Of a stretch of DNA of 64,000 nucleotides, positions 29,902 to 39,087 are shown piece by piece. The stretch comes from Bradyrhizobium commune. GTDB lineage: Bacteria > Pseudomonadota > Alphaproteobacteria > Rhizobiales > Xanthobacteraceae. Both the position numbers and the translations under genes were made by a program. Each line of letters opens with the position of its first letter. Position 1 is the first letter of the stretch. Location: assembly GCF_015624505.1 (NCBI RefSeq), contig NZ_CP061379.1:3968001-4032000 (forward strand), read 5' to 3'. Below the pieces are notes generated by a model that did no database searches, had not been told where the DNA came from, and saw only the letters and a program-made list of their open reading frames with translations.

Positions 29902-30204
29902 GTGCTGGATTTTGACGAGCTGCGTGAACTCGCAGCCGATGTTCGCGTTTTCGTCGATGTTGCCGAAGACAAGGCCGAGGCGCTCAGAGCGGTGATCGCG
30001 GCTTACGACGTGGTGCTGGCGATCTTCCCGTCCGGCGACGGCATGGGCCTCCACGTCATCAAGGGCAAAGCGATCCTGGACAAGATTGCGACATCGCGGA
30101 CGCATGCGATCTACAGCCACACCGCGATCGCGGTTCCGGACCTCGAGCATGCCGAAGTGCTCAAATATCTCACCGCCCCCGCCGAGCAACGGATAGCCGC
30201 CTAG
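29902..30204 (+). CDS. hypothetical cytoplasmic protein (100 aa)
   Basis: Start placed at GTG 29902 with GGAG ten bases upstream; an ATG at 29815 would add 29 Ser/Pro-rich residues that look untranslated. MLDFDELRELAADVRVFVDV, EALRAVIAAYDVVLAIFPSG and KILDKIATSRTHAIYSHTA-like text suggest an alpha/beta protein. No known family. Confidence 0.6.
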   Translation: MLDFDELRELAADVRVFVDVAEDKAEALRAVIAAYDVVLAIFPSGDGMGLHVIKGKAILDKIATSRTHAIYSHTAIAVPDLEHAEVLKYLTAPAEQRIAA

Positions 30205-30255
30205 CTCGGCGTACGGAGCGAACGACGCGAATAGGCCAGTGGCGCAGCCACGCCG

Positions 30256-31242
30256 TTATTCGATCAGTTCGTCGGCACGGGCAAGGAGAAGAGGCGGGAT
30301 ACTGAGCCCGAGCTTTTTTGCGGTCTGAAGGTTGAGCCGCAAATTGAACGTGACAGGTAGCTGGACGGGAATATCGCCCGGCTTTTCTCCTTTCAGGATC
30401 TTGTCCACCACCGCCGCCGAACGGCGGAAAATATCTGCGTGGTTCGGTCCGTAGGCAAGCAGCGCCCCCGCTGTCGCGGCGTCGAGATTGGCGCCCATGT
30501 ACGGCAGGCGATATCTCAGCGCCAGGTCGGCGAGCCGGGATCGTGAATTGAAGATCATCGAGTCCGGGGCTGTCGCGACGGCGTCGAGGCGCTGGGTGCC
30601 TGCCCTCTCCATGGCAGCATCAAGATCGGCCGGCGTTCGCGCTTCGAGCACGACGGTCTCGATCCCGAGGCCCTTTGCGGCGGCGCGATATTCGTCGAAC
30701 ACCCGTTGCGGACTTTGCCCGCCGGGATGCACGATCAGACCCATCCGCTTCAGCTCGGGCACGGCATCCCTGAAAATCTGAACCCGTTTGGCGGTGAGAT
30801 CCTCCGTGACATTCGACATGCCTGTCAGGTTGCCGCCCGGATGGGCCAGGCTCTCGGCAAGCCCGCTGCCGACCGGATCGGCTACGATCACAAAGACGAT
30901 CGGGATCGTCTTGGTCGCAAGCTCGGCCGCACGCGCCGCCGGAAGGATGGATGCCATGACAACATCGACCTTCAGATCGACAAGCTCCTGCGCCAACGCC
31001 GGAAACCTGTCGTATTGCTCATGGGCATATCGGTGCTCGAACAGGATGGTCCGTCCCTCGACGTAACCCAGGCTCTTGAAGCCTTCGGTGAGAGACGAGA
31101 AGTAAGCGCCCTCCTCTTCAGCGCTTCCTGCGTGCCAGAGCATGCCGACTTTGGGAACCTTCGCATGGACTTGCGCATGTCCGCGGCCCGGCAGCGCAAG
31201 AGCCGCGCTGCCGACAATCGTGACGAATTCTCGCCGGTTCAT
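30256..31242 (-). CDS. ABC transporter substrate-binding protein (ABC_sub_bind/TrpX type)
   Basis: 328 residues with a twin-arginine-like signal peptide (MNRREFVTIVGSAALALPGR). KVGMLWHAGSAEEEGAYFSS, GYVEGRTILFEHRYA, AVPELKRMGLIVHPG and the end LNLQTAKKLGLSIPPLLLAR match the ABC_sub_bind family, abundant in Bradyrhizobium and usually encoded without its permease. That is the case here. Ligand unknown. Confidence 0.9.
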   Translation of the reverse strand: MNRREFVTIVGSAALALPGRGHAQVHAKVPKVGMLWHAGSAEEEGAYFSSLTEGFKSLGYVEGRTILFEHRYAHEQYDRFPALAQELVDLKVDVVMASILPAARAAELATKTIPIVFVIVADPVGSGLAESLAHPGGNLTGMSNVTEDLTAKRVQIFRDAVPELKRMGLIVHPGGQSPQRVFDEYRAAAKGLGIETVVLEARTPADLDAAMERAGTQRLDAVATAPDSMIFNSRSRLADLALRYRLPYMGANLDAATAGALLAYGPNHADIFRRSAAVVDKILKGEKPGDIPVQLPVTFNLRLNLQTAKKLGLSIPPLLLARADELIE

Positions 31243-31410
31243 TTCAACTCAGCTCCCCGTTGCCGCAAGCTAGCACCCTGATCGAACCGGAGATAGAGTC
31301 GAGCCAAGGCCCAGCGCAAGGTGAAGGCTCGCCGTCGAACCGTTGCAAGTCCAATGGGCTGATCTACACTATTGCCAGTTCGCCCAGCCCTCGCAAATGC
31401 CGGAGATATC

Positions 31411-32400
31411 ATGACCGTCGCATCCCGCCGTGACATGTTGGCTGGTGGCGCGGCACTGGCTGCTGCAACCATTTTGCCATCTGCCGGGCCGACCCGGGCG
31501 GCCGCCCCACTCGCCGGAAAGCAGGCTCCGGGCTTCTATCGCTACCAGTTGGGGGATTTCGAGGTCAGCGTCATTTCGGATGGCGCGGTCAGGTTTCCGG
31601 TCGAAGGCTTCGTGACCAATGCCTCGACCGATCAGGTCAAGGCCGCTCTCACGGCGGCGTTTCGCAGCACGGAGGGTTTGACCGTCCCGTTCACGCCGAT
31701 CGTCGTCAACACGGGCGCGAAGCTGATCCTGATCGACACCGGTCTCGGTGATGCCGCGGTCGAGCGCACCAAGGGCAGCGCCGGCCAGTTCGCGTCCAAC
31801 CTGACGGCTGCGGGCCTCGATCGCAGGGATATCGACGCCGTCGTCATATCGCATTTCCACGTCGACCATGTCGACGGCCTGCTGACCGCGGACAACGAGC
31901 CGGCGTTTCCGAACGCCGAGATTTTCGTGCCGGCTGCCGAGCTCGTGTTCTGGATGGACGACGGCGAGATGAGCCGCGCGCCGAAGGGGCGGATCGAAGG
32001 GCTGTTCAAGAACACAAGACGGATCATCGCAGCGCTCGGCGGCAAGGTGACGCCATTCGGGGCCGGCAAAGACGTCGTGCCGGGGCTCACCGCCGTCGCA
32101 ACGCCGGGGCACTCCGTCGGCCACACCTCGTTCGTCCTGTCCTCGGGCAACAGAAGCGTGTTCGTCCAGGGCGACGTCGCCCATATCCCGGTGCTGTTTG
32201 TCGAAAACCCCACCTGGCACGCCGCGATCGATCAAGACCCGGTCATGGCCGAAGCCACCCGTCGCAAGATCTACGACATGCTGGTGGCGGAGAAGATGCT
32301 GGTTCAGGGCTTTCATTACCCCTTCCCGGCCCTCGCCCATGTCGAGCGGACCGCGAACGGCTATCGCGAGATCTTGGTGCCGTGGAGCACCAGCATCTAG
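31411..32400 (+). CDS. MBL-fold metallo-hydrolase, exported
   Basis: 329 residues from ATG 31411 with GGAG six bases before. Twin-arginine signal (ASRRDMLAGGAALAAATILP). The metal motif is SHFHVDHVDG, with further ligands in ATPGHSVGHTSF, QGDVAH and a late His in FHYPFPALAHVE. The layout matches quorum-quenching-type or aryl-ester MBL hydrolases. It is related along its whole length to 34162-35133 (shared DQDP.MA..TRRKI.D), and the two lie 1.8 kb apart. Confidence 0.88.
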   Translation: MTVASRRDMLAGGAALAAATILPSAGPTRAAAPLAGKQAPGFYRYQLGDFEVSVISDGAVRFPVEGFVTNASTDQVKAALTAAFRSTEGLTVPFTPIVVNTGAKLILIDTGLGDAAVERTKGSAGQFASNLTAAGLDRRDIDAVVISHFHVDHVDGLLTADNEPAFPNAEIFVPAAELVFWMDDGEMSRAPKGRIEGLFKNTRRIIAALGGKVTPFGAGKDVVPGLTAVATPGHSVGHTSFVLSSGNRSVFVQGDVAHIPVLFVENPTWHAAIDQDPVMAEATRRKIYDMLVAEKMLVQGFHYPFPALAHVERTANGYREILVPWSTSI

Positions 32401-32428
32401 GCGGTTCTGTCGCGCAGGAGTTGTCGCC

Positions 32429-32857
32429 TCACTGCGGCTTTGCGGTGCTCCGCAACCCGAACATCAGCAAGACGACGGCTGCGATGATGGCCAAGCCGAT
32501 GAATGCGAATCCGGCGGTGATCACCGCCTCCTTCCAGGGCTCCGCTTCGTGCCCCACCGCCGTGATCGGCGAGAGCGCGGCTGTCCCAAGCACGGCGGCC
32601 AAGGTTGTGACGATCCAATTGCCGTACGTTCCAACGAGCAGCGTCCAATAGGCCACCGCCTTGGTTCGTGGCGACAGCCAGACCTCGTTCCAGATGGCGC
32701 CGACGGCAAGCACAAACGTGCCGTTCATCACGCCCTCCAGATGGGCGGCCAACCCCATCCTCACATTGGTGAAATGCTGCTCGGCCAGACCGGTGAGCAA
32801 TCCGATCAGGAATAAGGCCGTGCCGTGCCAGAGGAGGCTGCGTTTGTCATCCGCCAT
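32429..32857 (-). CDS. hydroxylaminobenzene mutase-like membrane protein
   Basis: 142 residues from ATG 32857 (MADDKRSLLWHGTALFLIGL). Four membrane helices. MGLAAHLEGVMNGTFVLAVG and LLVGTYGNWIVTTLAAVLGT are the characteristic segments of HabA/HabB-type enzymes, which rearrange hydroxylaminobenzene to 2-aminophenol. Whether this homologue acts on nitroarene metabolites is unknown; no nitroreductase is adjacent. Confidence 0.8.
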   Translation of the reverse strand: MADDKRSLLWHGTALFLIGLLTGLAEQHFTNVRMGLAAHLEGVMNGTFVLAVGAIWNEVWLSPRTKAVAYWTLLVGTYGNWIVTTLAAVLGTAALSPITAVGHEAEPWKEAVITAGFAFIGLAIIAAVVLLMFGLRSTAKPQ

Positions 32858-33100
32858 GAGTTTCGCCTCCAGCTGCACGTTCAATCGTCGCCGAGTGGGT
32901 GGCGCTACGATGACGGTCCAACAGTGTCATCGTTATTCTTCGTCACGCATTGCAGCAAGCAGATGCATTCGGGTGGCGTTGAGAGCCACGACGCCGCGCT
33001 GCGGATCATCCCCTCCCCTGGTGCCCATTCTAAAGACTGGAGGATCGGTCATAATTCGTCTAGTTGTATTCGCCATGCGTCGCATTCAAGGGATGCAGCA

Positions 33101-33952
33101 ATGAACGACAAGCGCCCAGACAGTCTCAGCTATAGCCAGCTCGCATTCGGGGTGATGGTGATTCCCGCTTCGTTCGCCATTCTGTACTTCGGCAATACAT
33201 TCATGGTCGAGTACGTTGGCCGCTTCACTGGCAGCGCGCGCATTTCCGATTTCATCGATCAGCATTTCGTCTCGGCGAACATCATCTATTTCTTTGCAAC
33301 TATGCTCGTCATCGCGCCATTCGGCTTTTTGATCTCCTACCTCGAACAGAAGCGCCGAGAAATACATTGGTCCATATTCGCTGGAATGCTCGTCTTCAGC
33401 GTGCCTTACATGGCAACCTTCGCGATGGGTGTAGTTGGACTGGTCGGATTCCTGATTGCTTACTGCGGCCCGGTCGTCCGCGACTTCATTGATCACTACC
33501 GACTGGGAATTCCCGTCGTCATTGCGCTAGTCATCATCGCTTCGATTTGTTCGTATCTGTCATATCTGGCCCGTTCATTCGGACAAATTGGCTATGGCGT
33601 CGTCGAGCTAAGCTTCGGTCTGGCGTCGATTTGCTTTTCAGTGTTCACAGTCGTGATGGCCCCAATATCGGGCAACGCGGACAGGCTGACACCGAGTGAG
33701 ATCTGGCAGGCCGTTATTGGTTTCCTGGCCGGCGTCTACATCATCGTGCGTGGGCTGGTGAACATTCAGGATGGCTTCAGGCGCGGCGTCCTGACTCCGG
33801 AAGCCGTTGGCAAGTTGGTGCGCGTTCTGATCCAACGCTATGGACGCTTTCGAAATAGGAAGGTTTTCGGCCGCAAGAAGGAAGCGACAAACGCGATTGA
33901 GTCTGGCGCGAGAGCCCAAGAGATCGCGTCGCCCATGCCCCCGATTACATGA
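33101..33952 (+). CDS. polytopic membrane protein, unknown function
   Basis: 283 residues from ATG 33101 with AAGGGA eight bases upstream. Six or seven membrane helices are visible, for example FGVMVIPASFAILYFGNTFM, YFFATMLVIAPFGFLISYL, IPVVIALVIIASICSYLSYL and ELSFGLASICFSVFTVVMAP. The C-terminal 60 residues are cytoplasmic and basic. Base composition is clearly lower in GC than the flanking core genes. A 90-bp inverted-repeat element begins 18 bases after the stop. No family recognised. Confidence 0.75.
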   Translation: MNDKRPDSLSYSQLAFGVMVIPASFAILYFGNTFMVEYVGRFTGSARISDFIDQHFVSANIIYFFATMLVIAPFGFLISYLEQKRREIHWSIFAGMLVFSVPYMATFAMGVVGLVGFLIAYCGPVVRDFIDHYRLGIPVVIALVIIASICSYLSYLARSFGQIGYGVVELSFGLASICFSVFTVVMAPISGNADRLTPSEIWQAVIGFLAGVYIIVRGLVNIQDGFRRGVLTPEAVGKLVRVLIQRYGRFRNRKVFGRKKEATNAIESGARAQEIASPMPPIT

Positions 33953-33969
33953 CAATGCACTAGAATTAC

Positions 33970-34059
33970 AATTACGGTGACAGTGCACTCAACTGTCACC
34001 GTAATTATCGTGTCTCACTTCAGGGGTGCAGTCCAGTTGAGTGCACTGTCACCGTAATT
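33970..34059 (+). repeat. 90-bp inverted-repeat element, copy 1 (intact)
   Basis: The two ends form a perfect 26-bp terminal inverted repeat (starts AATTACGGTGACAGTGCACT). The left end is itself a hairpin: AATTACGGTGACAG and CTGTCACCGTAATT around TGCACTCAA. The centre reads ATCGTGTCTCACTTCAGGGG. It lies between the 33101 and 34162 genes. Confidence 0.93.
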
Positions 34060-34161
34060 CTCCTAGATCTTGCCGCAGAGGAAGGCTGCGCACGGAAGCC
34101 GACCTTGCGCAGAGCCCGTTCTCGTTGATATGCTGGATTATTCAGCGGGGAGTGCCGAACG

Positions 34162-35133
34162 ATGTTCGATGTCTCGCGTCGCGACCTGACACTTGGCGCA
34201 GCCGATGCTTGCGCCGCGTTTGGACTGGACAAGCCGATCACGTTCGTCGACGCGGCTTACGATCAGCAGTCCGTCGCGCAGCCATTCCGCAAATACAAGG
34301 TCGGCGACATTGAGGTCTTCTCTCTGATTGATGGCATGCGTGACGTTCCGCTGCGGGACGGTATGGTCAGGAATGTCAGCGTCGAACAGGTCAAGACCGC
34401 GTTGTGTGGCGCCGGTTTTCCCGACAATCAGGCGCCCCTGCGGTTTATCGTCATGGCGCTCAAGCTGCGCGATCAAGTGGTCCTGATCGACTCCGGTACG
34501 GGCGGTCATCCGATTTATGGCGAGGGAAACGGCCGGCTGTTCGAGAGCATGGCAGCGGCGGGTCTCGACCCCAAGGCCGTCAAGACGATCCTCATTTCCC
34601 ATCTTCATGGCGACCATATTTATGGGCTCATGAACAATGAGAGCGATGCGCAGGTCTTCCCGGATGCCGACATCGTGGTGCCCGCTGCGGAATTGAAATG
34701 GTGGACGCGCCCGGGGGTCGAGTCGCTCGATCTCGGGCCGTCACGCAAGGGCCTTGCCCGGCGCATTCAGGCGACGGTGGCGACTTGGAAAAACGTCAGG
34801 ACCTTTGAGGGAGAACCCGAACTCCTGCCGGGCGTGCACGCCATTGAGGTGCCCGGTCATAGCCCGGGAATGGTCGCGCATCTGGTCGCCTCCGGCGGCG
34901 AGCAGTTCCTGATCAGCGCTGACGTGGTCAATCTTGCGCCCCACATTGCAACGCATCCCGAGTGGCAGCTCGCGATCGACCAGGATCCGCAAATGGCGGT
35001 GGAAACGCGACGGAAGATCTTCGATCGCGCGGTCGCCGACAGGCTCACCATTTCGGGTACACATTGGTTGATGCCGAACGTCGGCACGCTGGCCAAGGAT
35101 GGCAACGGCTACGTGTTCGCGGCAAAGGGGTAA
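34162..35133 (+). CDS. MBL-fold metallo-hydrolase
   Basis: 323 residues from ATG 34162. Metal site SHLHGDHIYG, then EVPGHSPGMVAH, SADVVN and the late THWLMPN. Strong resemblance to 31411-32400 over the full length. The N-terminus still has the twin Arg (VSRRDLTLGAADACAAFG) but the hydrophobic stretch of a Tat signal is eroded, so export may be lost. It lies between two intact copies of the 90-bp element. Confidence 0.87.
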   Translation: MFDVSRRDLTLGAADACAAFGLDKPITFVDAAYDQQSVAQPFRKYKVGDIEVFSLIDGMRDVPLRDGMVRNVSVEQVKTALCGAGFPDNQAPLRFIVMALKLRDQVVLIDSGTGGHPIYGEGNGRLFESMAAAGLDPKAVKTILISHLHGDHIYGLMNNESDAQVFPDADIVVPAAELKWWTRPGVESLDLGPSRKGLARRIQATVATWKNVRTFEGEPELLPGVHAIEVPGHSPGMVAHLVASGGEQFLISADVVNLAPHIATHPEWQLAIDQDPQMAVETRRKIFDRAVADRLTISGTHWLMPNVGTLAKDGNGYVFAAKG

Positions 35134-35199
35134 CATCCTCCGCGACATTAGCCGTGGCTATGGGACGACGACTGTTGCAGGTAGCTGGCGCACCGCTCG

Positions 35200-35289
35200 A
35201 ATTACGGTGACAGTGCACTCAACTGTCACCACAATTATCGTGTCTCACTTCAGGGGTGCAGTCCAGTTGAGTGCGCTGTCAACGTAATT
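35200..35289 (+). repeat. 90-bp inverted-repeat element, copy 2
   Basis: Same length and orientation as copy 1, with a few changes (CTGTCACCACAATT in the left hairpin, GCGCTGTCAACG in the right arm). It follows the stop of the MBL gene by 66 bases. Confidence 0.92.
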
Positions 35290-35387
35290 CTGCGCTTGTC
35301 ATCGGCCATGGGTTTCGCCTCCAGCTGTCGCCGTTCAATCATCGTCGCGCAGGTGAGGCTCGCGCCACCCATCGAGCTGCATCAATA

Positions 35388-35424
35388 GAGCGCACTGTCA
35401 AAGTAATTCCCTGTCACCGCAATT
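35388..35424 (+). repeat. partial derivative of the 90-bp element (copy 3)
   Basis: GAGCGCACTGTCAAAGTAATT, a degenerate right end, is followed directly by CTGTCACCGCAATT. It lies about 100 bases behind copy 2, in the non-coding 35134-35549 stretch. Confidence 0.7.
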
Positions 35425-35549
35425 CCGCTAGAGCCTCCCTCCTGACAAATATGAATGAGCGGCCGAAGCCCTGTCTTGACCACCTGCGGACTACCGCTTA
35501 GGTTTATGACATTACATAATACAATTTCGATTTCGAAAGGTTTGAACCC

Positions 35550-36332
35550 ATGGCTTCCGCGACAGACTGGAGGAAAGAGAAGTTAGCCTCACTATTGCAA
35601 GCCGCCTCACATGCAATTAGTCGAGCCCGCTACGTATTTCTTACCTCGAATGTCGCCGGCATTCTAATTTTAGCCGGCTTGTTCAACTCAACCTTCCCAT
35701 GGCTAAGGAACGCAATTGATCGAGCTGTGACTATGTCGCCTCAGCCACCTCACCTAACCCATCTTCAAAAGGTTTTGTATGAAGATCTCTGGACATTGAG
35801 CGTTCCGCTACTTGGCGTAAAAGTGTCCGTGGATGACCTAAGCGTGATTGGGTCCAGCGCATTGTTGGTGATCGCCATCTGGCAGTACTACTGCGTTCGT
35901 AGAGAGAATCACGTCATTGACGTAATTACCAAAGAGGCTGAAAAAGCTGAGAGCGACAAGGAGTGTAGAGGATACCTCTACCATGGCGTAGCCCACTATT
36001 TTGTTTTCACCACGAGATATTTCGACGACGTAACTCTGAATAAGCAACGAGCCGGCGCAACCGTAGCTTTAAGCATCCTATTTTTTATGCCTGCTTGGAT
36101 ACCATTGCTGAACGTTCTTAGCGACTGTTACACATTGTTCTTCCCCTACAAGGGGTCTCTTACCTTCGTGCAAACTTGGGACACTCTTTCAACTAACGAA
36201 AGATGGGAAGCCGTACTGCGAATGTTCTTTGCCATCGTTGTTGGTTCGTTTTCGCTTCTGTACTGCGTGCGATGTCGGGAGTTGGACGGACAAACGCGAG
36301 TCAACGTCGAGAAAATGAGGCATCTCGTTTAG
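35550..36332 (+). CDS. membrane protein, unknown function
   Basis: 260 residues from ATG 35550. Four membrane helices: YVFLTSNVAGILILAGLFN (about 28-46), LSVIGSSALLVIAIWQYYCV (97-116), VALSILFFMPAWIPLLNVL (172-190) and FFAIVVGSFSLLYCVRC (226-242), with a charged cytoplasmic stretch between the second and third. Unusually AT-rich for this genome, with many AT-ending codons, suggesting recent transfer. Flanked by repeat copies 3 and 4. No homologous family comes to mind. Confidence 0.75.
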   Translation: MASATDWRKEKLASLLQAASHAISRARYVFLTSNVAGILILAGLFNSTFPWLRNAIDRAVTMSPQPPHLTHLQKVLYEDLWTLSVPLLGVKVSVDDLSVIGSSALLVIAIWQYYCVRRENHVIDVITKEAEKAESDKECRGYLYHGVAHYFVFTTRYFDDVTLNKQRAGATVALSILFFMPAWIPLLNVLSDCYTLFFPYKGSLTFVQTWDTLSTNERWEAVLRMFFAIVVGSFSLLYCVRCRELDGQTRVNVEKMRHLV

Positions 36333-36341
36333 GGTAATACG

Positions 36342-36422
36342 AATTGCGGTGCCAGTGCACTCAACTGTCACCGAAATTACCGTGCGTCACTTTAGGAGGC
36401 AGTCCGGCACTGTCACCGTAAC
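36342..36422 (+). repeat. 90-bp inverted-repeat element, copy 4 (diverged)
   Basis: AATTGCGGTGCCAGTGCACT at the left, CTGTCACCGAAATT inside, and GGCACTGTCACCGTAACT at the right. The right arm lacks about nine bases including the GTTGAGT part. Orientation as in the other copies. It begins ten bases after the stop of the 35550 gene. Confidence 0.85.
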
Positions 36423-36483
36423 TCCAGTTGTGATGCCGTTGCCGTGTGCTAAATTGGGCGTGCAGGCAATAAGGAAATCTCGG

Positions 36484-36663
36484 ATGGACAAATACGTCAT
36501 TGAGATTGAGAAAGGCGTCGCTCGCCTTATCGCGTTTAGATGGCGCTGCCCGGAGGATTGGGCTGCCAATCTGGATCAAGCCATTCTTAAATACGCGGAC
36601 TTAGCAGCCCAGTTGCGAGCTGCCAGTCACTGTGGGGCGCGTTCAGGCGTCCGCGTTCTTTAG
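36484..36663 (+). CDS. small hypothetical protein (59 aa)
   Basis: ATG 36484 with AAGGAAATC upstream. MDKYVIEIEKGVARLIAFRW, CPEDWAANLDQAILKYADLA, then a short tail. The final residues overlap the 3' end of the opposite-strand gene by 21 bases, so one of the two may be shorter in life. Unknown function. Confidence 0.55.
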   Translation: MDKYVIEIEKGVARLIAFRWRCPEDWAANLDQAILKYADLAAQLRAASHCGARSGVRVL

Positions 36664-36858
36664 GGCGGTAACCGCCTTAAATAGGGCGTTCGACGCCTTT
36701 CTCAGGCTGGCCTCATGTTGATCTGTGACATCAACCGGCGCAGCACCCGGCGCGTGTTGCGCGACGCGGACTTGACGAAGGTTGAGCGCCATCGAGAGCG
36801 TCGTGACGTTGGCGAGTTCGCGCTCCAATTCTTCAATTATCGGACCGTGTTTTGTCAT
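36643..36858 (-). CDS. small hypothetical protein (71 aa)
   Basis: ATG 36858 behind GGGGGAAGG; MTKHGPIIEELERELANVTT, SMALNLRQVRVAQHAPG and NALFKAVTALKNADA suggest a mostly helical protein. Tail-to-tail overlap with 36484-36663. Unknown function. Confidence 0.6.
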   Translation of the reverse strand: MTKHGPIIEELERELANVTTLSMALNLRQVRVAQHAPGAAPVDVTDQHEASLRKASNALFKAVTALKNADA

Positions 36859-36929
36859 GCCTTCCCCCGGTGCGAAGTCGTGATCGTCGAGGACAGCCCA
36901 GCGGCGGCGTAAGGCCGCCAAGGTCAATT

Positions 36930-37313
36930 CTAACGATCAACAGAAATTGGCGGCATCCGGCGAGAACCTCCTGGTATTTTCCGTGTCAAAATACTGCTAG
37001 CTCCAAGGGCCTTGGCCGTCTGTTGAGCTTGGGCCACGACCGCGTAAGCATGCTCAACTTGCTCAGAGTCGAGCGGGATTTCTCTTTGATAAAGATGGCT
37101 CCAGCCGGGCTTGAATGCTTCACGAGTGACGTGCTTGACGGCAACTCTCGATGCTTGGAGTTGGCTATGAAAGGCCTCCGCGAAAAACTCCAAGTCCCGA
37201 TCGCATCGCGGGCACGTGACAAAATGGGTTACTTGCAGGATGCCGATCTCGGCGTGGTGAACGTGACCGCATTCGCAGCAGGTGACGGGCCAAAAGTCAT
37301 GATCGTTGAGCAC
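36930..37313 (-). CDS. hypothetical protein with CxxC pairs
   Basis: 127 residues if started at GTG 37313, which has GGAG eight bases upstream (GTG 37331 is another choice). VTCCECGHVHHAEIG and FVTCPRCDRDLEFF contain paired cysteines and histidines that resemble a small zinc ribbon. The second half is Glu/Gln-rich. It precedes the 36643-36858 gene on the same strand. No named family. Confidence 0.55.
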   Translation of the reverse strand: MLNDHDFWPVTCCECGHVHHAEIGILQVTHFVTCPRCDRDLEFFAEAFHSQLQASRVAVKHVTREAFKPGWSHLYQREIPLDSEQVEHAYAVVAQAQQTAKALGASSILTRKIPGGSRRMPPISVDR

Positions 37314-37391
37314 TTCTCGCACTCCAAGCACCTACGGTAGTTTAGGCGTTTCAGACACGCCACGCCAGCGCTAGATCGACCCGATCGACAG

Positions 37392-37535
37392 AATTGCGGT
37401 GACGGTGCACTCAATTCGTTCGGCAGGACCGACCCGCCGGCTCCGCGCCCGCAAGCCCGGACCGCCCACTGTCACTGCAATTATCGTGTCTCACTTCAGG
37501 GGTGCAGTCCAGTTAAGTGCACTGTCACTGTAATT
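37392..37535 (+). repeat. 90-bp inverted-repeat element, copy 5 (interrupted)
   Basis: Left end AATTGCGGTGACGGTGCACT, then about 55 foreign GC-rich bases starting TTCGTTCGGC, then ACTGTCACTGCAATTATCGT and the normal centre and right end to TAATT. The right end abuts the stop codon of the next gene (37536). Same orientation as the other copies. Confidence 0.87.
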
Positions 37536-38060
37536 CTAAAGGTCTTTTGGCGATGTCTCTCGAAACGTCTCCACGAGCCTACTTAGCGCGGCCAACTCAC
37601 GCCTGCGACGACGAAAACTCGAATAACTAACAATCATCGCAACGATGACTGTCAGAAGCGTCCCTATGCCGAAGACGAGAACCGGAAGCGATCCGATGTC
37701 TCCTCGATAGAAACCTAACAAGACCAGGAATGTACAGACCGTCCAACCGGGCGCAATTCTAAGATAAACTTCAGCGAACCGACGCCCCCAGTAGAACCGC
37801 GGCAGCGGAGCCATGTATGCAAGTGTCATTATCATCGCTTCCGAACCGTAGCCGAGCCCATTTGGCTTCCAGATTCGGCAGATGATCACAAGTGCATGCG
37901 TCAGAGAGCCGATCAGAGCGCACCCTACAATCAATGAAAAAGCGCCGTACGATCGAGCAAGCATTGTAGCTTCGTAGCCGACAATAAAAACGCAAGCTCC
38001 GCTAACCGCCAGCAGGGCATTAAATCGGATCGCTTTGGGTAACTCACGAAGGAATATCAC
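37536..38060 (-). CDS. membrane protein, unknown function
   Basis: 174 residues from GTG 38060. That start overlaps the TGA of the upstream gene (GTGA) and has GGAGG before it; ATG 38081 would begin inside a Gly-rich run. Four membrane segments, for example NALLAVSGACVFIVGYEATM, AFSLIVGCALIGSLTHALVI and PVLVFGIGTLLTVIVAMIVS, and a basic RRRRREL tail. Base composition is low in GC. Coupled to 38057-38509. Confidence 0.7.
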   Translation of the reverse strand: MIFLRELPKAIRFNALLAVSGACVFIVGYEATMLARSYGAFSLIVGCALIGSLTHALVIICRIWKPNGLGYGSEAMIMTLAYMAPLPRFYWGRRFAEVYLRIAPGWTVCTFLVLLGFYRGDIGSLPVLVFGIGTLLTVIVAMIVSYSSFRRRRRELAALSRLVETFRETSPKDL

Positions 38061-38509
38061 TCCTCTCCCTCCGCCTTCCATGCCTCGTAAACTCCTCGAC
38101 CAAGAAAGCCGATAAGGATAGCTACATCAGAAGCATTCATGATCCATCGGAATGGGAATGCAAACGGTAGTCCTTCGAACGCATCTCCTATCTTCAGGAA
38201 TTTGAGCAATAGCTCCAGTATTTCCATACCCAGAATGATAATAATCGCCCCCACCAGATGAGAGGCGATCTTGTTCGCTACCACGTATCTGTGCTGCCAA
38301 GTTTTTCTGACCTTCTTGCGAACTTCCTGGGACAGAAATTTATCGTCATCGATAACGGTCATGAGGGAGCCCCACGATGGGTCCAACGCCTTGCCATAGC
38401 ACACGGAAGGGCTGATAATTGCAAGCCTTTCAACTAGGAACGGACTCTGCTTCCGAAGCGAGAGCGTCAGAGTCTCCAGACGTGAAACATATCGATTAGT
38501 TGGGCCCAC
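38057..38509 (-). CDS. membrane protein, unknown function
   Basis: 150 residues from GTG 38509 (GGAGG partly overlaps the start, so the exact start is open). A polar N-terminal half (VSRLETLTLSLRKQSPFLVE) is followed by two membrane helices, ASHLVGAIIIILGMEILELL and ASDVAILIGFLGRGVYEAW. First gene of a two-gene coupled operon of accessory type. Confidence 0.65.
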   Translation of the reverse strand: MGPTNRYVSRLETLTLSLRKQSPFLVERLAIISPSVCYGKALDPSWGSLMTVIDDDKFLSQEVRKKVRKTWQHRYVVANKIASHLVGAIIIILGMEILELLLKFLKIGDAFEGLPFAFPFRWIMNASDVAILIGFLGRGVYEAWKAEGEE

Positions 38510-38634
38510 CTCCGTTAGGATTCAGCGACCGAAAGCGACATTCATTGGCTGCCGCACCGCGGGCGCTGCGGTATTATCCATATCTAAATTTCAAGGACGC
38601 ATCGCCCTCAGCTCCATCCCAGGGAGCAACAACC

Positions 38635-39087
38635 ATGCGATACCTCCACACCATGCTGCGCGTGCGCAATCTCGATGTCGCGCTGACGTTTTACCAGGAT
38701 GCGCTGGGGCTGAAGGAGGTGCGGCGGATCGAGAACGACAAGGGGCGGTTCACGCTGGTGTTCCTGTGCGCGTCGGACGACCTCGACGCGCTGAGCGACC
38801 AGCCCAAGACGCGCGGCGCGCCGCTGGTCGAGCTCACCTACAATTGGGACGAGGAGAAATATGGCGAGGACCGCTTCTTCGGCCATCTCGCCTATGAGGT
38901 CGACGACATCTACGCGACTTGCGAGAAGCTGATGAAGGCGGGCGTCACCATCAACCGGCCGCCGCGCGACGGCAACATGGCGTTCGTCCGCTCGCCCGAT
39001 CTGCACTCGATCGAGCTGCTCCAGAAGGGCGAGCCGAAGGCGCCGGCCGAACCGTGGTCGTCGATGCCAAACACCGGCCACTGGTAG
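38635..39087 (+). CDS. gloA: lactoylglutathione lyase (glyoxalase I)
   Basis: 150 residues from ATG 38635 with AGGGAG upstream. HTMLRVRNLDVALTFYQDAL (metal His5), LVELTYNWDEEKYG (Glu), GHLAYEVDDIYATC (His) and SPDLHSIELLQKGE (Glu) are the four metal ligands. It converts the methylglyoxal-glutathione adduct to S-lactoylglutathione. GC-rich again, so the accessory stretch ends before this gene. Confidence 0.93.
   Translation: MRYLHTMLRVRNLDVALTFYQDALGLKEVRRIENDKGRFTLVFLCASDDLDALSDQPKTRGAPLVELTYNWDEEKYGEDRFFGHLAYEVDDIYATCEKLMKAGVTINRPPRDGNMAFVRSPDLHSIELLQKGEPKAPAEPWSSMPNTGHW

Follow-up and report, generated by a model that had tools for sequence, protein, structure and literature searches.

The window analysed here, a stretch of 64,000 nucleotides of the Bradyrhizobium commune chromosome (positions 3968001-4032000 of 7.62 Mb), contains an array of four copies and a pair of fragments of one inverted-repeat element. 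These copies are very probably non-autonomous palindromic elements of the REPIN/TIRtron type, i.e. dimers of a repetitive extragenic palindrome (REP) that depend on a REP-associated tyrosine transposase (RAYT) and have captured the tip of an insertion sequence (IS). This reading rests on identical ends around a RAYT gene, varied spacers between the ends, composite copies with unrelated flanks, a presence/absence pair, and an IS that targets the palindrome. The kind of element, a RAYT-dependent miniature element, is ordinary; its build is unusual, as REP dimers carry the tip of an IS targeting them and lie in a variable segment. The array is made up as follows.

33970-34060, + strand: copy 1, with the left REP half (33970-33992), a REP-like box (33993-34006), the IS3 tip (34007-34035) and the right REP half (34036-34060)
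33993-34035, + strand: solo 43-bp terminus of an IS3-family element in copy 1 (IS positions 1336-1378, 95% identity)
35199-35290, + strand: copy 2, anatomy as in copy 1, IS terminus at 35223-35265
35388-35425 (about), + strand: two tandem right-half (REP) fragments, from the end scan
36342-36423, + strand: copy 3, degenerate, from repeat pairing and folding
37391-37535, + strand: copy 4, IS terminus at 37469-37511; its right half abuts the stop codon of a minus-strand open reading frame (ORF, 37536-38081)

A sequence scan of the window found all of these parts at the places where an earlier note on this DNA had described 90-bp inverted-repeat copies. The window contains 15 matches to the 16-mer of the end (up to 3 mismatches), of which the one at 32922 is probably due to chance, and three mismatch-free copies of the 29-nt core; both counts lie far above 100 shuffles, which gave a mean of 0.18 (largest count 2) and 0, respectively. 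Each copy is built as a dimer from an end of 24-26 bp, GAATTACGGTGACAGTGCACTNAA. Copy 1 has a perfect 26-bp inverted repeat and, as read from the sequence, a nested left hairpin with two 14-nt arms, so that both traits ascribed by the earlier note to its best copy are real. Over 92 bp, copies 1 and 2 share 96% identity; their flanks are unrelated. Each copy holds one IS end, placed mid-copy, with copy 3 too degenerate to match; the junction following the IS tip in copy 3 is GCACTGTCACC, the form usual at IS insertions, and about 50 bp of unrelated DNA interrupt the left half of copy 4. Judged from the core, the orientation is identical in all four copies, in agreement with the note; an effect of the replication fork on orientation is conceivable, but oriented copies are few. 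Its placing of the copies near gene ends can be narrowed to a distance of 0-66 bp between every copy and an ORF's stop codon, one copy abutting it; three of the neighbouring ORFs end at 33952, 35133 and 36332, and the fourth, on the minus strand, has its stop codon at 37536-37538. Folding of the single DNA strand gives one long hairpin for copies 1 and 2 and weaker folds for copies 3 and 4 (z-scores of -9.5, -8.5, -2.2 and -3.2 for copies 1-4).

The end GAATTACGGTGACAGTGCACTNAA is present at about 30 loci of the same chromosome, and a complete element consists of two inverted ends and a spacer that differs between copies. We collected 56 dimer entries from this genome, relatives and viral contigs, two pairs of entries overlapping; 19 are from the own genome, where 9 to 104 bp separate the two 18-mers. 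The own loci, in a list compiled by hand, are clustered, with 13 neighbour gaps below 5 kb versus 0.57 expected and a maximum of 5 in 10,000 random placements. An exact 19-mer of the end was found in 52/98 genomes of the genus. The earlier note had named a lack of copies in any other genome, or constant flanking genes, as what would speak against a spreading repeat; copies are found elsewhere and their flanks differ. The elements are extragenic, as 175 of the 182 element midpoints lie outside called genes at a called coding fraction of 0.39, a count that depends on a crude gene caller which missed several window ORFs. Two own elements, at 4472459 and 5163728, are minimal dimers of 45 bp whose spacer measures 9 bp; in many relatives the former's left flank is kept precisely up to the element (best two candidate regions per genome). 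The exact 19-mer also occurs in 22 stretches of predicted viral contigs. In one of these (L093:4811-5647) two short ORFs are flanked by two dimers of the same orientation with nearly identical spacers. A plasmid collection gave a single Bradyrhizobium plasmid match, at 47% query coverage.

At 5164462-5165225 of the own genome, a pair of the same ends encloses one ORF.

5164488-5165168, between REP ends: own RAYT gene, encoding a Y1/HUH transposase

The ORF matches PF01797 (6.5e-10) and the TnpArep structure PDB 4er8 (3.7e-4). It carries HVH within MPNHVHLIL, and the Tyr in RYVSLNPV, which we take to be the catalytic residue, aligns with a Tyr of 4er8. In this genome as well as in relatives, the end pair flanking the RAYT gene is about 755-770 bp apart. 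Since the same ends flank a RAYT gene, the window copies are best read as REPIN/TIRtron-type elements and not as DDE relics. One full RAYT match (E 0.001) was obtained in the own genome, together with an adjoining partial tandem copy. This copy (5165075-5165398) comprises the start of the RAYT gene and its end, and the match holds two stops. Counting fragments, 19/98 genus genomes have a RAYT match at E 1e-30 or better. The exact end occurs in 18/19 genomes with RAYT versus 34/79 without (Fisher p 2.5e-5, kinship not corrected). Genome G082 contains two RAYT units that share 96.3% identity along 766 bp, from one end to the other, and whose flanks are unrelated; the two units of G096 share 94.6% over 756 bp. 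A scan of public genomes with the exact 19-mer (at least 119 stretches) yielded at least 13 full-length RAYTs with both ends (up to 4 mismatches) and protein identities down to 61%, among them those of Bosea psychrotolerans (68%), Caulobacter vibrioides (65%) and Mesorhizobium huakuii (63%). The end is thus common to several alphaproteobacterial genera. Classical REPs are not known to have so wide a range.

The middle of the composite copies derives from an IS. The core 30-mer (up to 3 mismatches) was detected in 91/265 genomes, repeatedly as inverted pairs about 1350 bp apart. The IS of genome G147 measures 1378 bp and is bounded by perfect inverted repeats of 43 bp; the transposase ORFs, as seen in a single copy (L316), are OrfA and OrfB with helix-turn-helix and rve domains (OrfB rve, 3.5e-26). 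Its assignment to the IS3 family rests on length, inverted repeats, the OrfA/OrfB domains and general features of that family. At 30 loci among the core 30-mer matches listed, a REP half directly adjoins 23/35 IS ends by a strict test, versus 0/31 control windows and 54/20,000 random positions. Four IS copies have both ends in one locus and span 1377-1378 bp, and all four are bordered by 4-bp direct repeats (GTTG, GTGC, GCAC and GCAC), three of which lie inside the palindrome. The IS3-family element, with its OrfA and rve-bearing OrfB, thus inserts into the REP palindrome, in AGTGCAC, with a short target duplication of 4 bp, as in REP-targeted elements of this family. The inner 14 bp of its inverted repeat also resemble the REP half, with at most 4 mismatches in 26/33 ends and in none at control offsets; in all eight ends of the four two-ended copies the difference is 1-2 mismatches. 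In the own genome the IS terminus occurs at seven places, each beside REP ends. Among the best 40 of 115 candidates there, a weak internal match of 44 bp was the only trace of the IS body.

With regard to movement, genome G088 contains a full dimer within an insert of about 115 bp that G183 lacks, the flanks being 98.5% and 97.1% identical; in this one presence/absence pair there is no target duplication. The composite of REP, IS tip and REP probably moves as a unit, because it recurs in the sequences with unrelated flanks.

Several observations weigh against a RAYT-dependent mobile element. The own RAYT ORF reaches 78.2 bits with NCBIfam REP_Tyr_transpos, just below the cut-off of 80, and the GTAG tag of classical REPs is missing from the ends. 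Ends are still held by 34/79 genomes without a RAYT match, and therefore RAYT is not needed for their persistence; in genome G042 the RAYT contains a stop codon and the exact end is absent. Two window copies are among the 12/35 IS ends that fail the strict adjacency test, and by eye about five of these 12 adjoin a REP half that is shortened or diverged. The G088/G183 site lies at the edge of a RAYT remnant, and G183 may instead have lost the insert. Empty sites were not found for any of the window copies. When the flanks of eight own elements were used as queries, homology stopped at the element edge in the matches listed, and no match bridged an element. Such misses mean little, because only the best two candidate regions per genome were considered; the own genome showed 4 matches for 16 flanks. 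At the element at 1078499, homology to 10/10 relatives covers one flank and breaks off at the border of the element. This element, at least, marks a rearrangement breakpoint, and hence simple insertion does not account for every element. Flank-query matches that seemed to cross this junction were not upheld on follow-up in 10 relatives.

The array lies in a chromosomal segment whose makeup differs among Bradyrhizobium species.

30207-38612, strand not assigned: variable segment hosting the array, bordered by a conserved ORF whose end is at 30204 and by the glyoxalase gene
38620-39087, + strand: glyoxalase-family gene (PF00903), which forms a conserved border to the right of the variable segment
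34162-35133, + strand: metallo-beta-lactamase-fold gene between copies 1 and 2, with differing contexts in relatives

The first 20 glyoxalase loci were chosen partly for having ends. Another 60 were taken in rank order of glyoxalase similarity, of which 58 were analysed (L239 and L245 were dropped, as the contig ended). Across 68 closed loci, our own counted, the segment is 0.4-12.3 kb long and differs in gene content. At up to 3 mismatches, 42/58 rank-order segments contain at least one end (119 ends in 359 kb), and for all 79 loci the figures are 61 segments with ends and 18/79 without; in the neighbouring core block, which totals 407 kb in the closed loci, there are 0 ends. RAYT matches, mostly fragments, are found in the segments of 10/58 and 16/79 loci.

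A rival reading is a gene-cassette platform, in which the REP ends act as attC-like recombination sites and REP-gene-REP units move. The elements do lie between unrelated genes, and genome G016 has two blocks that are ordered unlike those of G095, with ends in between. Moreover, 45/678 homology breakpoints fall within 10 bp of a REP versus about 26 for random intergenic points. This excess shrinks to 31/653 versus 25.5 when RAYT-unit alignments are excluded, a value equalled in 68/500 random rounds, and for the same reason the note's suggestion of a repeat that spreads with genes is not supported. The homologous block with the beta-lactamase-fold gene breaks off at the left edge of copy 2, to within 1 bp, in 12/23 relatives listed (best five or best two candidates per genome). 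This exact stop is weak evidence, and the gene was rejected as a moved cassette, because other species show nearly the same block limits without REPs. In relatives the block has other neighbours, and 22/23 of their loci are without an end (up to 4 mismatches). Movement of genes as site-bounded units, as known for integron cassettes, is not supported by the breakpoint count, with no integrase search made. We regard a cassette platform as very unlikely.

We rate slightly lower still an RNA-level role at gene 3' ends, as terminator or mRNA stabiliser, with spread being secondary. The stop codons beside the four window copies and the strong hairpins of copies 1 and 2 would agree with it, and in the loci compared the closest called gene end, counted up to a distance of 150 bp, is a 3' end in 53 cases and a 5' end in 25. 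Mobile REPs that avoid promoters would, however, be expected to give the same 3' bias, the gene calling behind these counts is crude, and the comparable segments that lack an end speak against such a role. Rfam gave no match at positions 33000-38500 of the window. A classical miniature inverted-repeat transposable element (MITE), whose outer ends are acted upon by the DDE transposase of an insertion sequence, has the slimmest chance of all. The perfect inverted repeats, the small size and the core derived from an IS3-family element would be in line with it. The outer ends, however, match the RAYT unit and not the IS, the only IS end of a window copy lies in its middle, and a target-site duplication is lacking in the single presence/absence pair. 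In proposing a MITE, the earlier note was right about a non-autonomous, mobile element; the partner is a RAYT (Y1/HUH) unit and not a DDE transposon. Similarly, the transposase with the same ends for which it proposed to look turned up in an autonomous-looking element that encodes RAYT and not DDE, the target-site duplications did not appear in the G088/G183 pair, and the empty sites amount to that one clean pair.

For the REPIN/TIRtron reading the following mechanism can be proposed. With two inverted ends of 24-26 bp, a single strand could fold into a hairpin, which a Y1/HUH transposase would recognise in trans, excise and reinsert without target duplication. The IS3-family element inserts into REP palindromes, and its body would then be deleted, probably between a REP half and the box resembling it on the inner side of the IS inverted repeat. 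This deletion would leave a solo IS tip inside the REP dimer, and the composite would then multiply in the variable segment by the glyoxalase gene. In this scheme we infer RAYT activity, the hairpin intermediate, the deletion route and present-day mobility. It is conceivable, if rather doubtful, that the inner box of the IS, CTGTCACnGnnATT, mimics the RAYT palindrome, so that one protein surface reads both its own end and its target, and that RAYT spreads the REP dimers with IS tips, which gather in a variable locus.

Among known systems the RAYT/REP system falls with the TIRtrons, near REPINs and REP-targeted IS elements (PMC3733652, PMC3116915, PMC1525189, as far as the parts consulted of these papers describe them). 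In TIRtrons, or TIRYTs, a RAYT-like Y1 transposase gene lies within long terminal inverted repeats (TIRs), and families of such repeats, solo and dimeric, occur in the genome as well (Di Nocera et al. 2013, PMC3733652); 20/26 published TIRYTs belong to TnpAREP subclass 2.1 (Quentin et al., PMC6006769). Here too, a RAYT-type Y1 gene with HUH and Tyr stands between inverted repeats that form a genomic family of solo and dimeric copies. On the other hand, section 16 of PMC3733652 names no Bradyrhizobium TIR family, the GGGGWSAS motif published there for part of the TIRs is absent (GAATTACGGTGACAGTGCACTNAA is without GGGG), the end found here spans alphaproteobacterial genera, and some dimers hold IS tips. 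With REPINs the elements share two inverted conserved ends, a variable spacer, a hairpin, an extragenic position and a genomic RAYT (PMC3116915, in the parts consulted); for this comparison the spacers were taken from the 56 dimer entries and the hairpins from window copies only. They differ in lacking the GTAG tag and in the two RAYT copies each of G082 and G096, as in the consulted parts of Bertels and Rainey (2011, PMC3116915) RAYTs are described as single-copy and not self-mobile. The IS resembles IS1397, ISKpn1 and ISPsy8, the REP-targeted IS3-family elements of Tobes and Pareja (2006, PMC1525189, consulted in part), in family, in its two transposase ORFs, in using one position inside the REP and in the short duplication. 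It differs in having another REP as target, a duplication of 4 bp instead of the 3 bp of ISPsy8, an inverted repeat of its own with a REP-like box along the inner edge, and solo tips that became part of REP dimers. Br-REP1 and Br-REP2 of B. japonicum (Hahn et al. 2016, PMC5082802, consulted in part) are likewise repeated Bradyrhizobium palindromes of intergenic regions and 3' untranslated regions; by eye, their printed consensus is unrelated in sequence. In the literature searched, parts of which were consulted and which leaves aside subscription journals and preprints, we found no account of the REP/RAYT family with IS tips, no paper with the literal 16-mer end and none on RAYT, TIR and Alphaproteobacteria together.

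The spread of REP/RAYT systems has been argued largely from such single-copy, non-self-mobile RAYTs (PMC3116915, in the parts consulted). The present family offers closely similar end-to-end RAYT copies in one genome, an end common to several alphaproteobacterial genera, a presence/absence pair and an IS3-family element that targets the palindrome and is similar to it at its own end. Two questions thereby become testable with small DNA substrates, i.e. cleavage by a TIR-type RAYT (ends GAATTACGGTGACAGTGCACT and GAATTACGG/CCGTAATTC) and recognition of the REP by the IS. The segment by the glyoxalase gene, in turn, is a place to look for lineage-specific Bradyrhizobium genes. The window also contains a 24-nt inverted repeat (36507-36530 and 36681-36704, 88% complementary) that is not related to the REP ends.

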